Shown piece after piece: positions 2,774 through 49,250 of a DNA stretch of 49,250 nt. Where the stretch lies: positions 1-49,250 of the forward strand of contig PKYQ01000012.1 of assembly GCA_003133685.1 (NCBI GenBank), read 5' to 3'. Source of the stretch: Acidimicrobiaceae bacterium (GTDB lineage: Bacteria > Actinomycetota > Acidimicrobiia > Acidimicrobiales > RAAP-2). Made by a program: the position numbers and the translations under genes. Positions within the stretch are counted from its first letter, which is position 1. The number at the start of each line of letters is the position of its first letter. The notes under the pieces are model-generated. The model searched no databases. It was given only the letters and a program-made list of their open reading frames with translations, and had not been told where the DNA came from.

Positions 2774-2840
2774 GGCCCCCACGTTAGGTTGAGCCCGCGG
2801 ATTTTCTCGGAGGATCAGTATCGAATGCAGTAGGGTCGAA

Positions 2841-3020
2841 GGTGCCTCGCGGCAGCGAAGTTGGTGAGATTCCAACGCTGTCCCGCAACTGTAAGTGGTC
2901 GTGCATTAGGACCATGTAGCCAGGTCGCCTTCCGCGAGGAGATGTGAAAGACAGCTCTCGAGGTAAGGAGCGGTCGTTCGGATATCCATCCGTCGCCCAA
3001 CCCACTTCGACGGAAAGGAG
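2841..3020 (+). promoter_or_regulatory. Cobalamin (B12) riboswitch upstream of btuF
   Basis: The aptamer core is visible: GGTGAGATTCC (2863-2873), CTGTCCCGCAACTGTAA (2878-2894) and the B12-box-like GTAGCCAGGTCGCC (2916-2929). The core is closed by a perfect 8-bp stem, CCTCGCGG at 2845-2852 with CCGCGAGG at 2932-2939. Downstream, CCGTCG (2990-2995) and CGACGG (3008-3013) can form a hairpin directly before the Shine-Dalgarno AAAGGAG (3014-3020). This suggests translational control of btuF by adenosyl- or other cobalamin, with the operon repressed when B12 is plentiful. The aptamer call is firm; the switching mechanism is inference. Confidence 0.9.
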
Positions 3021-14414: not shown

Positions 14415-16067
<1,653 letters not shown>

Positions 16068-43568: not shown

Positions 43569-45944
43569 TTACGCATCGTCCCTGGGCAGGGCGACGCTGA
43601 GCCACTCGGGTTTGCCGGCGGAATCGAGCAGGAGTCGATCGAGGTCAGCCACGGCGAGCGGTCGCGCGAACAAGAAGCCCTGTCCCGTATCAACGTGTTC
43701 GGTCTCGAGGCGTGAGCGCTGGTCGTTCGTCTCGACGCCCTCGGCGATCGTCTCAATGCCGAGGACTTTGCCGAGCTGCACGAGTGTGTGCACGAGCGCT
43801 TCGGACTCCTTCGAATCGGCGATGCCGGACACGAACGATCGATCGATCTTCAAGATGTCGATGGGGAACTGACGCAAGTAGGCGAGGGACGAGTAGCCCG
43901 TGCCGAAGTCGTCGATGGCGACGCGCACACCGAGTGCCTTCAACAACATCAAACGTGACAGCGTTGATCCGGAGTCGTGCATCAGCGCGGTCTCAGTGAG
44001 TTCCAGGATGAGCTCACTGGAGTCGAATCCGCTCATCGAGATTGCTTCGCGCACGTCGGTGACGAGTTGGTCACGTTCGAGTTGTTTCGCCGAGATGTTG
44101 ACCGAGATCGTGAATCGGTGACCACGGCCCTGCCACAGAGCGCCTTGTCGACACGCCTCGTGCAGGACCCACGCACCGACGGGGATGATGAGACCCGATG
44201 ACTCGAGCGCGGGGATGAAGTCGTCGGGCATGACGACGCCGCGGTCGGGGTGCTTCCAGCGAAGTAGCGCCTCGACGCCGGTGAAGCCACCGGTCGCCAG
44301 GTCAACCGTCGGCTGGTACATCAAGAAGAACTGGTCGCCCTCGAGAGCGCCCTGCAGGTCGACTTCCAGGCGTCGATGGTGGTCGACCGATTCCTGCATC
44401 GACGGAATGAACTTTACGGCCCTCTGTTTCCCGGCCGCCTTGGCCTGGTAGAGCGCGATATCGGCATCTTGAAGCAAGGCCTCGGGCGTGGCACGATCTC
44501 CTTCGGCGATACCGATACTGGCCGAGACGTGGAGCGGTACTTTGCTCGCCGAAATGATGAACGGCGTCGCCATGACGTCGAGCAGACGCTCGGCCACCAC
44601 GTCCACGCCGGCCTCCAAGGAGACACCGTCGGCGAGGACGACGAACTCGTCGCCCCCGAGTCGACCGACCGTGTCATTCGCGCGAACTGCGCTATTCAGA
44701 CGAATGCCGACGCTGACGAGCAGCTCATCACCGGCGCGGTGGCCCAGGGTGTCGTTGATGTCCTTGAAGTTGTCGAGGTCGAGAAAGAGCGCGGCAACTT
44801 CCGTGCGCTCGCGTCTTGAGCGTGCGAGCATGCGGTCGATGCGGTCGAGGATCAGCGCGCGATTGGGAAGACCGGTGAGTGAATCGTGGAGTGCTTGATG
44901 TTGCAGCTGATCGGTTCGTTCCTTGACGAGCTGCATGGCGCTTGATCGACTCGTACCGAGTACGTAGATCAACAGTGCGAGCAGGAGGCTGAGGAGCGCA
45001 CCACCGAGGAAGAGCTCCGAGGAATCGCCTTGAGCGAAAATGCTGGCGTTAACGGCGGCCTTATAGACCTGGACGTGCCAACCGTTGTGAAGGTCCACCG
45101 ACGCGAAGATTGCGTCCTTCGGATGACTTCCGGCCATGAAGGTTTCATTGGTGCGGGTTTGGCTGTAACGAAACGCGACCCCCGTGTTTGGGTGACCCAG
45201 CAGAGCAGTCTTCAAAATGGTCTTCGGCAGAATTTCGGTGCCAGTGAATCCAATGAGGTTCGCACGGCGAGCGGCCACCGTGTCGGGGTGGCTGCCCTTG
45301 CGATACAGCGGCGTGCCCACCGCCAAAACGGCGGGGCCGCTCAGACTGTCGGGGATGTAGACGGCCTGCCCGGAACCGGCCGCCTGAAGTAATTGCGGGC
45401 CGAGAGATGAATCACACAGGTCCAGGCCTATTGGAATCTCCGGCAATCCGGTCCGAGCGTGCTCGAGGTCCACGAGGCAGTAGAAGGGCCGCTTGCCCGG
45501 GGGTGTCAAAGTAAATGTCTGACCCGGAGCCTTGGATTCCCGCTCATTGACCGCGGCCCGTGCGGCGAAGGCCACCAACTGAGATGGACGAACGATTTCG
45601 ACTTCGGCGACGGCGAGGATCTCGGGATAACGCCGGAAGGCGTCGACGTCGTTGACCCAACGAAGGAAGCTCGACTCCGACGCGTTCGGGTTCTCGACGT
45701 TGAACGCACCCGCACTGATCGCCAGATCTTGTTCGTGTTGAATCGCGAGGTTGAGTGCGGACGCGATCTCGACGGACGACGTCTGGAGATTTTGATGATC
45801 CCGCTGAACGTCGTCCTTGGCGAGATTTTTGGCGCCGAAGAAGGACCCTAGGAAACCAATTGCTACGACGCCTACGGCAATAGCGATCCAAAAACTCCGT
45901 CGCGGACTCTTGCGGCCAGGTCCCGGTGTCGTAGATTCACTCAC
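43569..45944 (-). CDS. Membrane-anchored GGDEF-EAL cyclic-di-GMP protein with CHASE-like sensor
   Basis: 791 residues from GTG 45944. Order: a helix at about 18-38, an extracytoplasmic domain of about 270 residues with CHASE-like features (EIASALNLAIQHEQDL, RRYPEILAVAEVEIV), a second helix at about 315-335, a GGDEF domain with intact RLGGDEF near 432, then an EAL domain with EALLRW near 556, NISAKQL, LTETAL, DDFGTGYSSL and KIDRSFV. Both active sites look complete, so it may both make and degrade cyclic-di-GMP in response to an external signal. Stand-alone gene. Confidence 0.93.
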   Translation of the reverse strand: MSESTTPGPGRKSPRRSFWIAIAVGVVAIGFLGSFFGAKNLAKDDVQRDHQNLQTSSVEIASALNLAIQHEQDLAISAGAFNVENPNASESSFLRWVNDVDAFRRYPEILAVAEVEIVRPSQLVAFAARAAVNERESKAPGQTFTLTPPGKRPFYCLVDLEHARTGLPEIPIGLDLCDSSLGPQLLQAAGSGQAVYIPDSLSGPAVLAVGTPLYRKGSHPDTVAARRANLIGFTGTEILPKTILKTALLGHPNTGVAFRYSQTRTNETFMAGSHPKDAIFASVDLHNGWHVQVYKAAVNASIFAQGDSSELFLGGALLSLLLALLIYVLGTSRSSAMQLVKERTDQLQHQALHDSLTGLPNRALILDRIDRMLARSRRERTEVAALFLDLDNFKDINDTLGHRAGDELLVSVGIRLNSAVRANDTVGRLGGDEFVVLADGVSLEAGVDVVAERLLDVMATPFIISASKVPLHVSASIGIAEGDRATPEALLQDADIALYQAKAAGKQRAVKFIPSMQESVDHHRRLEVDLQGALEGDQFFLMYQPTVDLATGGFTGVEALLRWKHPDRGVVMPDDFIPALESSGLIIPVGAWVLHEACRQGALWQGRGHRFTISVNISAKQLERDQLVTDVREAISMSGFDSSELILELTETALMHDSGSTLSRLMLLKALGVRVAIDDFGTGYSSLAYLRQFPIDILKIDRSFVSGIADSKESEALVHTLVQLGKVLGIETIAEGVETNDQRSRLETEHVDTGQGFLFARPLAVADLDRLLLDSAGKPEWLSVALPRDDA

Positions 45945-46905: not shown

Positions 46906-47766
46906 TTAGACGCGGTGTACGTCGGCGCTCATCGTCGCTGGCGCCGTTCGCGTAAGGGCGACGACGCCGGCGCACATGACGGCAAAGGCGAAGATGCCGA
47001 TCGTGAGGTGCAGCGCACCGTGATGCAGTCGTTCGCGGTACAGCCAAATACCGAGGGCGACGCTCACGACCGGGTCAACGATGACGATGAAGGTCTGAGA
47101 GACGCTCAGCGGACCGACGTGTAGCGCCGCCTGCTCACACAGCAGTCCGACGATGCCGCCGACGATCAGGGCGTATATTGGCCATCGCGTGAACGCGCCA
47201 CCGAAGCCCAGGGCGCTGATCGTGTCGGTCGTCGCCTTGATGAACGTTGCTTCCAGGGCCCACATGACCGCCGTGGCACTCGCGAAGAGCGCGGCTCGAC
47301 GCGCCGGCGATCCCCGTTGGGCGAGAAGGACGAGTAGCGCGACTGCGGCGACACAGACAATCGATGGCACTGCCCACGCTGACGTCGTTGGAAGAAATAA
47401 TCCTCCGTGCGGCGACGTCATCACGAGAAAGATGACGAGTCCCGCTGCGGTGACAAATGCGGCCAACCACGTGACGCCACGGATTGATTGATGGAGCCAC
47501 AGCTGTCGAAGCACCAACGCGAGAATCAACTCGGTGACGAGAATCGGTTGCACCAATGACAGTGGTCCGAAGTGAAGTGCCAACGCTTGGAAAATGAGTG
47601 ATCCGCAAAGTGCAACCCATCCCAGTAACCACAGAGGATGTCGCAGTAAGTACTTCACGAACTTCCAACCCTTGGACTTTTCAACGTCACTCGTGCTCGC
47701 AATGTGTTGCAACGTGACGGCGAGTGCGTTGGTGAGTGACGTGAGGAGCGCGAAGAGGATCGTCAT
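46906..47766 (-). CDS. DMT-superfamily transporter (EamA/NIPA-like)
   Basis: 286 residues and about nine to ten helices, starting without a signal peptide. Two EamA-like halves: ALALHFGPLSLVQPILVTELIL near 62 and AALHVGPLSVSQTFIVIVDPVVSVALGIWLYRE near 218, the repeat typical of DMT carriers of the Mg/NIPA-like or multidrug type. The substrate is unknown. It ends 4 bases from the padR partner relic on the other strand. Confidence 0.85.
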   Translation of the reverse strand: MTILFALLTSLTNALAVTLQHIASTSDVEKSKGWKFVKYLLRHPLWLLGWVALCGSLIFQALALHFGPLSLVQPILVTELILALVLRQLWLHQSIRGVTWLAAFVTAAGLVIFLVMTSPHGGLFLPTTSAWAVPSIVCVAAVALLVLLAQRGSPARRAALFASATAVMWALEATFIKATTDTISALGFGGAFTRWPIYALIVGGIVGLLCEQAALHVGPLSVSQTFIVIVDPVVSVALGIWLYRERLHHGALHLTIGIFAFAVMCAGVVALTRTAPATMSADVHRV

Positions 47767-48019
47767 CTATCGAACGCAACGATCGAGTTCGCGTATTCCA
47801 GTTCGTAGTTGTAACGCACGCAACACCATTCGTTCGCGTCGAGATATTGATCGATTCGTGACGGCCTTGGTGCGCGCATCGGGCATACGTCGGAGGTTAA
47901 GGCACCACTTCGTGCGCGTCTGTTTTCGAAGGAGTTGGCTGACTCGCGGCCGTACGCCAATTCTCGGTGACCAATGGGTCAATTCGGAGTCAGAAGAAGG
48001 GCCAGCGAGGCCTTCGGGC
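47767..48019. other. Gene-free interval, first part
   Basis: The 718 bases between the transporter start and the SRAP stop contain no ORF with family features. This first part shows nothing I can name beyond the expected minus-strand promoter of the transporter; the rest is annotated separately. Confidence 0.5.
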
Positions 48020-48081
48020 TGTGGAAAACATGAGTCTAAATAGTTGGAAGTTGTGCTCTGTGTGAACAAACCGGTGGATAA
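48020..48081 (+). promoter_or_regulatory. Cluster of DnaA-box-like 9-mers
   Basis: TGTGGAAAA (48020-48028) and GGTGGATAA (48073-48081) each differ by one base from TGTGGATAA, the reverse complement of the consensus DnaA box. TGTGAACAA (48061-48069) differs by one from the mycobacterial variant TGTGGACAA. All three face the same way within 62 bases. No dnaA, dnaN or AT-rich unwinding element is near, so an origin is unlikely; a DnaA-titration or regulatory site is possible. Confidence 0.35.
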
Positions 48082-48087
48082 CGTGAC

Positions 48088-48105
48088 AACTTTTGGGCAA
48101 AAGTT
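48088..48105. repeat. 18-base perfect inverted repeat
   Basis: AACTTTTG and CAAAAGTT are exact reverse complements around GG. It lies 7 bases after the last DnaA-box-like sequence and upstream of the putative structured RNA, an operator-like position. Confidence 0.5.
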
Positions 48106-48176
48106 CCTGATATCACCATTTGACCCGATGTCAGCTTGCAAGGTCTGGCACAGTATCACTCGTAGTTCACGTAGCA

Positions 48177-48425
48177 CCTGTCGAATGAGACGGAGAACCG
48201 AAAGGGGATTCGAATCAGGAGGGGAGAGGGGCCTCGCAAGAGGAACAGAACTCCTCCAACGGGCAGCGGAGTTCGGTCCGCGGTCAGTAACGACAAATGA
48301 CGTGAAGTGCCAGCCGTCAAGCGGTGACCTGTCCGACACGGGTCAGCGAGTGATGTGCCTTCGGGAACCCCGAGGGGCGGGTGAGCTTTGGCTCACTGGT
48401 CACTCGGGGTTTTCGGCTTTTCTGA
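48177..48425 (+). ncRNA. Putative structured non-coding RNA with intrinsic terminator
   Basis: No protein family is visible, yet successive local stems are: CCTG/CAGG with CGAAT/ATTCG (48177-48219) enclosing CGG-AGAA-CCG; AGGAG/CTCCT enclosing a CCTC-GCAA-GAGG GNRA hairpin (about 48217-48255); GCGGA-GTTCGG-TCCGC (about 48266-48281); and GACC/GGTC near 48326-48344. The run ends in a long terminator: AACCCCGAG with CTCGGGGTT, an inner GTGAGC/GCTCAC stem, then TTTTC and CTTTTC. A plus-strand terminator with no gene before it implies an RNA product. I could not match it to tmRNA, RNase P, SRP, 6S or 6C RNA; the 5' end is a guess. Confidence 0.5.
48366..48425 (+). terminator. Rho-independent terminator
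   Basis: AACCCCGAG (48366-48374) pairs with CTCGGGGTT near 48403-48411, with an inner GTGAGC-TTTG-GCTCAC hairpin; the stem is followed by TTTTC and CTTTTC. The T-rich tail is only on the plus-strand side, so it does not serve the SRAP gene, which is transcribed leftwards and ends at 48485. Confidence 0.75.
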
Positions 48426-48484
48426 ATTTAATTTTGATGTTGTGATTGTTCGAGCGAGGCAGTGTGATGACCGTTCATTCAAAT

Positions 48485-49192
48485 TCAAAACAGCGGCGAA
48501 GACTCCATCGACTCGATCAGCTCCGGTCCGTCATTCTTCACTGATCCCACCGCCTTGCTGACTCCGTGGTGCACGAGTGTGCCACTACGGGCCGGTGCGA
48601 GCAGCTGCAGTCGCTCCTCGGGCTCGTGCTTTCGCACGTTGATCCAGGTCTCGACGTCGTCGAGTTCGAGGACGACGGGCATGCGGTCATGGATTTCGTC
48701 CATGTCCTCATTCGGTGTGGTGGTGATGATCGTGCAGGTCTTGGTCATCTCGGCGTCGGCCGGTTCCTCGGGACTGCGCCAGTACTCGTAGAGTCCGGCG
48801 AAGAGCATTGGTTGTCCGTCGGAGCGCGTGAAGAAGTGGGCCTGCTTGACGCGGCTCGGACGGTGATCCCACTCGTAGAAGCCGTCGACGGGAATGACGC
48901 ACGGTCGCTTGGCGAAGGCGCTGCGAAAGGAGGGCTTCTCGGCGACGGTCTCGCCGCGGGCGTTGAAGAGTCGATTGCCAATTTTCGGATCCTTGGACCA
49001 ACTCGGGATAAGGCCCCAGCGGTAGCGGTCCATGAGGCGCTCCTCGTCGCGTTCGCTCACGGCGAAGAGTCGCCGCTGCGGCCCGATGTTCCAACTGGGC
49101 TGGACGTCAGGGTCGAGGCCTGCGGCCAGGGTGGCGTTGAGTAGCCGGGCCAGGCGAACCGGCGGGGTGAACAGGGCGACACGACCACACAC
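48485..49192 (-). CDS. SRAP-domain protein (YedK/HMCES family), abasic-site DNA crosslinker
   Basis: 235 residues from GTG 49192. That start is decided by the family: it puts Cys at position 2 (MCGRVALF), which must be exposed after Met removal to form the thiazolidine link with abasic sites; the longer frame from 49240 would bury it. Other active-site elements: PSWNIGP near 32, WGLIPSWSKDPKIGNRLFNARGET-like block near 59 (Asn), FYEW near 105 (Glu), and IHDRMPVVL near 170 (His). It shields abasic sites in single-stranded DNA. Confidence 0.94.
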   Translation of the reverse strand: MCGRVALFTPPVRLARLLNATLAAGLDPDVQPSWNIGPQRRLFAVSERDEERLMDRYRWGLIPSWSKDPKIGNRLFNARGETVAEKPSFRSAFAKRPCVIPVDGFYEWDHRPSRVKQAHFFTRSDGQPMLFAGLYEYWRSPEEPADAEMTKTCTIITTTPNEDMDEIHDRMPVVLELDDVETWINVRKHEPEERLQLLAPARSGTLVHHGVSKAVGSVKNDGPELIESMESSPLF

Positions 49193-49250
49193 GGGTCCAT
49201 TCTTGCGTGAGATTGGGGCCATTGGCGCGTGTGACGACAACTGGCTACTC

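Follow-up and report, generated by a model that had tools for sequence, protein, structure and literature searches.

A predicted structured noncoding RNA gene of an apparently undescribed family in Acidimicrobiales

Introduction

6S RNA, which is distinguished by a rod-like fold that opens into a bubble at its center, binds the sigma-70 RNA polymerase holoenzyme, and Ms1 RNA, which is actinobacterial, binds the RNA polymerase core. Other structured RNAs, such as OLE and GOLLD, are orphans of unknown function that were found by comparative genomics. The commonest mode of action of bacterial small RNAs is antisense base pairing. Here we describe a locus in a 49,250-nt stretch of DNA from an Acidimicrobiaceae bacterium (assembly GCA_003133685.1, contig PKYQ01000012.1), referred to below as the window, in which nucleotides 48162-48424 very probably constitute a structured noncoding RNA gene. 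The reading toward which we lean, with modest confidence, is that of a noncoding, structured RNA of about 260 nt with a transcription unit of its own, which belongs to a non-Rfam family and serves as a trans-acting protein-binding scaffold. Within the accessible part of the open-licence papers in PMC, we found no literature on such an RNA in Acidimicrobiales.

Results

Nucleotides 47767-48484 of the window lie between two genes of the minus strand. The divergent upstream neighbor codes for an EamA-like transporter (46906..47766, starting at 47766; EamA score 21 bits, below the cut-off of 28.2), and the convergent one for an SOS response-associated peptidase, SRAP (48485..49240, ending at 48485; Pfam PF02586, 230 bits). 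The interval measures exactly 718 bases, and its initial description as free of protein genes was borne out. Two ORFs reach into it, 48044-48445 on the plus strand and 47767-48339 on the minus strand, neither of which gave a Pfam match at E 0.01, and no open reading frame is conserved over the RNA on either strand, any given frame being open in at most 8 of 28 relatives. Homologues of the EamA-like, SRAP and PadR genes were searched for around 30 loci of the genus. An SRAP homologue is located on the opposite strand, at most 1.5 kb downstream of the RNA, in 21 of them, and the EamA-like neighbor is seldom kept (4 of 30, some of the loci having short flanks). The neighbors of distant loci, as judged by eye from translations, vary and include an alpha/beta hydrolase in some, a glycerophosphodiester phosphodiesterase in others, and the start of a HAD-like gene upstream of the RNA in locus L324. 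Elsewhere in the window, nucleotides 43569-45944 (minus strand) encode a CHASE-GGDEF-EAL protein, whose domains indicate an enzyme of c-di-GMP turnover that carries a sensor domain.

The candidate gene, defined by fold, conservation and covariation, occupies nucleotides 48162..48424 of the plus strand, the 3′ end being a predicted one. The RNA had initially been placed at 48177-48425; the strand was right, and the 5′ end was moved to near 48162 on the basis of conservation and of helix P1. The RNA region is 269 to 278 bases long in 28 relatives, which have pairwise identities of 67 to 100% (mean 79%). Conservation in these sequences is about 0.42 far upstream and 0.4-0.5 downstream. Within the RNA most 20-base bins lie at 0.67-0.96, the peak of 0.96 being in the 3′ hairpin, and a separate conserved stretch is seen upstream at about 48019-48117. 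Two diverged sequences, L029 and L030, were excluded from these figures, from the count of reading frames and from the model R2 described below, and were included in the alignment A1 and in the covariation count. The longest conserved stretches are the hairpin loops, a purine-rich internal loop and the 3′ hairpin.

The segment 48170-48425 folds with −119.2 kcal/mol (z −4.87), a value equaled by none of 200 shuffles, and its parts are also stable in isolation (z −5.01 for 48162-48310 and −6.71 for 48311-48416). RNAalifold applied to the MAFFT alignment A1 of 30 sequences gave a consensus of 75 base pairs arranged in ten helices with two GNRA loops, GAAA at 48200-48203 and GCAA at 48236-48239, which agrees with the at least four hairpins, one of them a GNRA stem, seen at first. 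The 5′ domain (48162..48310), which is supported by covariation, by its isolated fold and by model R2, is a multiloop enclosed by P1 (48162-48172/48300-48310) and P2 (48180-48182/48292-48294), and when isolated it folds alone with the multiloop closed by P1. It includes a GNRA hairpin formed by P3 (48191-48193/48210-48212) and P4 (48198-48199/48204-48205), the helices P5 (48220-48224/48251-48256) and P6 (48229-48235/48240-48246), which make up the element CCUC-GCAA-GAGG within the purine-rich internal loop, and P7 (48262-48270/48277-48285), which carries the loop GUUCGG. This domain is followed by a hairpin spanning 48313..48358, which consists of P8 (48313-48319/48351-48358) and P9 (48324-48332/48338-48347) and ends in a pentaloop CCGAC (48333-48337) that is invariant in 30 genus sequences, and then by P10 (48361-48386/48391-48416), a terminator-like 3′ hairpin with conserved mismatches (CCCCGAG-RRGC-NGG / GGYYACUCGGGG).

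The stems vary by compensatory changes beyond chance rather than by drift. In the alignment, which holds 29 distinct sequences, 97.0% of the base-pair cells contain standard pairs (89.7 ± 0.3 in shuffles), 33 of the 75 pairs have changes on both sides (15.5 ± 2.0), 174 cells are changed on both sides (49.9 ± 7.5), and the covariation score is 0.309 (0.164 ± 0.006); none of 500 shuffles reached any of these values, a test that is inflated by the relatedness of the sequences. Sliding the partner strand by 1-3 columns, a control that retains relatedness and in which the structure is favored by having been taken from the same alignment, reduced the paired cells from 97.0% to 38-46%.

The 3′ hairpin (48361-48416; −42.6 kcal/mol, z −8.49) is followed by UUUU-CGGC-UUUU. 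It had been considered a strong plus-strand intrinsic terminator, and it is indeed long and stable; the U run, on the other hand, has a break in it, and more distant relatives do not keep it. A terminator scan of the window did not list this hairpin. The designation is therefore reasonable but not certain.

None of the 4227 families of Rfam 15 matched the RNA at the gathering score, either in the window or in nine relatives, and so the initial view that it is a structured RNA of no known family, unlike the common housekeeping RNAs, has withstood both the Infernal comparison and the analysis of the stems. A permissive scan of the gap gave a single 19-bit match to a microRNA family (MIR842, cut-off 85), which was taken as chance. 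RNase P RNA (RF00010) was discarded, since it does not match at this locus and the genome has its own copy on another contig (253 bits). The G033 genome, which is 94% complete, had no RF00010 match, unlike four others tested, perhaps due to an assembly gap. At gathering thresholds the whole window includes two tRNAs and a cobalamin riboswitch (2823-2946, plus strand; 36.3 bits, barely over the cut-off of 31.5), all of them outside the gap. ARAGORN also called an 89-base tRNA-Val at 14729-14817 (minus strand) that lacks an Rfam match at the gathering score and is either a false call or an odd tRNA.

Upstream of the RNA, nucleotides 48146..48154 (plus strand) include a strongly conserved, predicted extended −10 element, TGG-CACAGT (TGGCACAGT), in which four of the nine columns are invariant and three more are at least 90% conserved in 30 sequences. 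If TGGCACAGT acts as an extended −10, transcription would start at about 48161-48162, which coincides with the beginning of P1. This reading is supported by distant loci in which a hexamer of similar sequence follows a TTGAC-type box; in L324, for example, TTGACT-N17-CACAGT precedes the hairpin. A promoter scan of the window listed no promoter, and a promoter search in 128 hairpins called one for only 59.

Farther upstream, three sites of the plus strand, which we take to resemble the DnaA box consensus, are found within a conserved block of the genus alignment: TGTGGAAAA (reverse complement TTTTCCACA) at 48020..48028, GGTGGATAA (reverse complement TTATCCACC) at 48073..48081, 53 bases past the first, and TGGGCAAAA at 48094..48102, 21 bases past the second. 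These spacings are close to whole helical turns. Used as a pattern, the triple occurs once in 30 of 61 genus genomes and never in the other 31, nor in a reversed control, and it lies directly upstream of the RNA in all 22 of the 30 triple-bearing genomes with a known RNA position. Boxes were enriched in the promoter search mentioned above (0.73 versus 0.044 per 156 nt), in loci that are related and selected, so that the figure is no proof. Taken singly, TTWTNCACA sites show no enrichment in the genome of the window (28, versus 41 in a reversed control). They had seemed nearly exclusive to dnaA and the RNA locus in 1.2 Mb of G492, 280 kb of G034, 100 kb of G033 and the window, a notion that failed when whole genomes were counted (28 sites in the genome of the window, 17 in G034, 9 in G033 and 3 in G492). 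Among the elements that the initial annotation had proposed as controls, the DnaA-like boxes are thus retained as a conserved, phased triple and not as single sites, and the inverted repeat AACTTTTG/CAAAAGTT (about 48088-48105) was abandoned because only its right half is conserved.

The proposed BLASTn comparison with related genomes, carried out with nucleotides 48000-48440 on 61 genomes, was positive for 33 of the 37 that belong to the genus and for none of the 24 from other genera of the order. The four genomes of the genus without a match were G002, G024, G031 and G032, the last of which is 95% complete. Hairpin P10 is part of the models R1 and R3 and the basis of the pattern CCCCGAGRRGCNGG-N8-22-GGYYACTCGGGG, which was found in 109 stretches of the genome_contigs collection and in 15 of 395 genomes of a class sample. 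Among the 80 of the 109 records that were listed, nearly all are Acidimicrobiales, Acidimicrobiaceae, Ilumatobacteraceae or unspecified actinobacterial MAGs. The sequence CCGACAC, though absent from the search pattern, is present at most 85 nt upstream of the hairpin in 97 of the 109 loci, which are mostly close relatives and hence not independent. Models R1 and R2 were applied to 80 of these loci, and R2, which represents the 5′ domain, recognized 52. Four records (L148, L164, L132 and L177) with the labels Saccharibacteria, Acidobacteria (two) or Burkholderiales carry the RNA or its hairpin; the labels of L148 and L164 look wrong, or their bins mixed.

Model R1 matched 14 of 298 genomes of the order, in 5 of 171 genera. 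As its distant matches lacked a good match to the 5′ domain, a model of the 3′ domain, R3, was built from 33 sequences (alignment A4, 33 of 38 dereplicated sequences). R3 matched 94 of 395 genomes of the order, in 46 of 190 genera. The E-values that these models give are rough, and the weakest matches are tentative. Among the genomes listed, it matched 23 of the same genus, with none missing, and 8 of 11 from other genera of the family; the 17 matches in a phylum sample of 396 genomes all belong to the same class. When 14 distant R3 matches were judged by eye, TTGAC was seen upstream in nine and CCGACAC in only two. Beyond the family, it is mainly the 3′ hairpin that carries the match, and only this hairpin and a promoter-like start are clearly shared there. 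The two class-level matches, which have a variant hairpin, L319 and L320, are doubtful. A plasmid or phage origin was discarded, as plasmids and phages gave no match to the RNA and viral contigs gave none to the hairpin pattern.

The RNA gene is duplicated in tandem at L024 (genome G026), L046/L155 (G178), L113, L172 and L182 and in genomes G555, G729 and G735. The distance between the copies is mostly 486-601 bases, but about 2 kb in G729. One copy has lost the CCGAC loop in L113 and in L155, whereas the other has retained it, which suggests divergence after duplication. Tandem modules of a different kind precede the conserved 3′ hairpin in L317 (6421-6881; 4.1 copies of 112 bases, 97% matches) and L131 (978-1225; 4.7 copies of 53 bases, 81%).

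Discussion

The standalone gene, the conserved loops and hairpin without a long seed, the changing neighbors and the wide retention together point to a trans-acting RNA with a protein partner. Action in trans is likely, and the more specific role of a protein scaffold falls somewhat short of being probable. In the mechanism that we propose, transcription would start at a sigma-70-type extended −10 promoter and end at the 3′ hairpin, and the folded RNA would bind a protein rather than offer an unpaired seed to mRNAs. The protein could contact the CCGAC pentaloop, the GUUCGG loop, the purine-rich GRGGGR/RACRGA loop, the mismatches of P10 and the internal loops. The loops of P7 and P9 could also form a kissing contact of 4 bp (UCGG with CCGA); both are invariant in the 28 core sequences, so that no covariation stands behind this contact, and its P7 half is missing in the diverged L029, L030 and L046. 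A protein that occupies the three phased upstream boxes would probably tune transcription, DnaA being the obvious candidate, and the box triple places this link within direct experimental reach. The model of the 3′ domain matches about a quarter of the genomes sampled from this actinobacterial order, which is large and for the most part uncultured, and RNAs so widespread and strongly constrained often have a basic role.

A base-pairing antisense RNA, in which an exposed stretch would pair with mRNAs and the remainder would be scaffold and terminator, is an unlikely alternative. In its favor, conserved sequence is exposed in the loops CCGAC and GUUCGG and in the strand AGYACC (48173-48178) of an internal loop. 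However, the RNA is long and mostly helical, with 75 consensus pairs, its longest conserved stretches belong to hairpins, and no long conserved unpaired seed is found.

Less probable still is a functional counterpart of 6S or Ms1 RNA that would bind RNA polymerase and set its availability in a clade with no recognized 6S or Ms1. The size of the RNA and its standalone gene are compatible with such a role. RF00013 gave no match in the window or in five of five genomes at E up to 0.1, a weak result given that most actinobacterial controls failed too, as expected from the range for which that family was designed. Table 4 of PMC9130861 names no Acidimicrobiales among the predicted Ms1 carriers; the table omits one match to an unspecified ‘Actinobacteria bacterium’. 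The absence of a 6S match in the five genomes and of a listed Ms1 for the order makes this RNA a concrete candidate for the gap. On the other hand, its consensus, a branched multiloop with hairpins, lacks the long rod and central bubble of 6S RNA, and its neighbors in the window differ from the HAD hydrolase of Ms1. This fold and the RF00013 results for the window and the genomes exclude 6S RNA itself. A bolder and rather improbable idea is that of a third class of RNA in Acidimicrobiales that binds polymerase or a hub protein, is unrelated to 6S and Ms1, and follows the replication cycle in its level via the DnaA boxes. If this idea were true, the RNA would be a global transcription- or replication-state RNA of Acidimicrobiales with a promoter read by DnaA.

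A point against the trans-acting reading is that in five of 17 parsed distant or genus loci (L318, L319, L320, L327 and L331) a gene on the same strand starts within 100 bases past the hairpin, where a leader role is conceivable. For the RNA in general, a cis-acting leader, attenuator or riboswitch, in which the terminator or an alternative hairpin would control a downstream gene, is very unlikely. Such an alternative hairpin, CCUUCGGGAACCCCGAGGG at 48358-48376 (−12.0 kcal/mol), would compete with P8 and P10. Compared with shuffles it is modest (z −1.96, 8 of 200 as good) and its columns hardly vary; apart from its energy little supports it as a functional element, and, conserved in sequence as it is, it may be incidental. 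Moreover, the next gene in the window is convergent, as is the SRAP gene in most loci of the genus, the downstream genes of distant loci vary, and a constant same-strand downstream gene, the hallmark of riboswitches and leaders, was not found in the 30 genus loci or the distant ones.

The weakest alternative, a DNA element such as a replication origin or a DnaA-titration site, is highly improbable, in spite of the three phased DnaA-box-like sites, in view of the RNA-type covariation across about 250 bases and of TTWTNCACA counts below those of the reversed control. The question of an origin was addressed by tiling G492:C1, most of G034:C23 and part of G033:C18, and by locating dnaA and parB. 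Within the 1.2 Mb tiled from G492, TTWTNCACA occurs just twice, one site being at the 5′ end of dnaA and the other upstream of the RNA. The cumulative GC skew of G492 dips twice, once at 200-220 kb, where dnaA lies, and once at 680-700 kb, where the RNA lies, which leaves this genome ambiguous by itself. In G034, by contrast, the cumulative skew declines to the left as well as to the right of the RNA, albeit with slightly positive values in the two 10-kb bins directly before it; in G033 the skew is positive on both sides, the right one extending for only 10 kb. Gene dnaA is 481 kb away from the RNA in G492 and 376 kb in G110, and is on another contig in the genome of the window and in G034, G033, G028 and G030. 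It lies 5.2-6.4 kb from parB in 8 of 10 genomes, the exceptions being the genome of the window, where the two genes are on different contigs, and G038, where they are at opposite ends of the record. In six genomes the stretch that follows dnaA, up to a gene judged by eye to be dnaN, includes box-like sites beside CTACTACTACTA repeats (three genomes) or the variant CCTACTACT (three), an arrangement that we take to be the DnaA-trio hallmark of oriC. Despite the boxes and the skew of G492, these results do not support an origin at the RNA locus, which is probably not one.

Returning to the proposed trans-acting structured RNA, its closest counterparts can be compared as follows. RNase P RNA of class A is likewise a conserved multi-helix noncoding RNA, which in this genome is encoded on contig C25. 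With 6S RNA the window RNA shares the length class, the structured nature and, as predicted here, independent transcription; 6S RNA, however, is a long rod, whereas the consensus described here consists of a multiloop domain and two hairpins. The resemblance to Ms1 lies in an actinobacterial, standalone intergenic RNA of similar size with limited sequence similarity outside close relatives. Compared by description, the fold appears different, and Ms1 is flanked by a HAD IB hydrolase gene instead of the EamA-like and SRAP genes. As in orphan structured RNAs like OLE and GOLLD, covariation is strong, a coding frame is absent and the taxonomic range is limited; unlike them, the RNA matches none of the 4227 Rfam families at the gathering score. 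The family thus appears to be undescribed, while its kind, the structured and independently transcribed bacterial RNA, is a known one.
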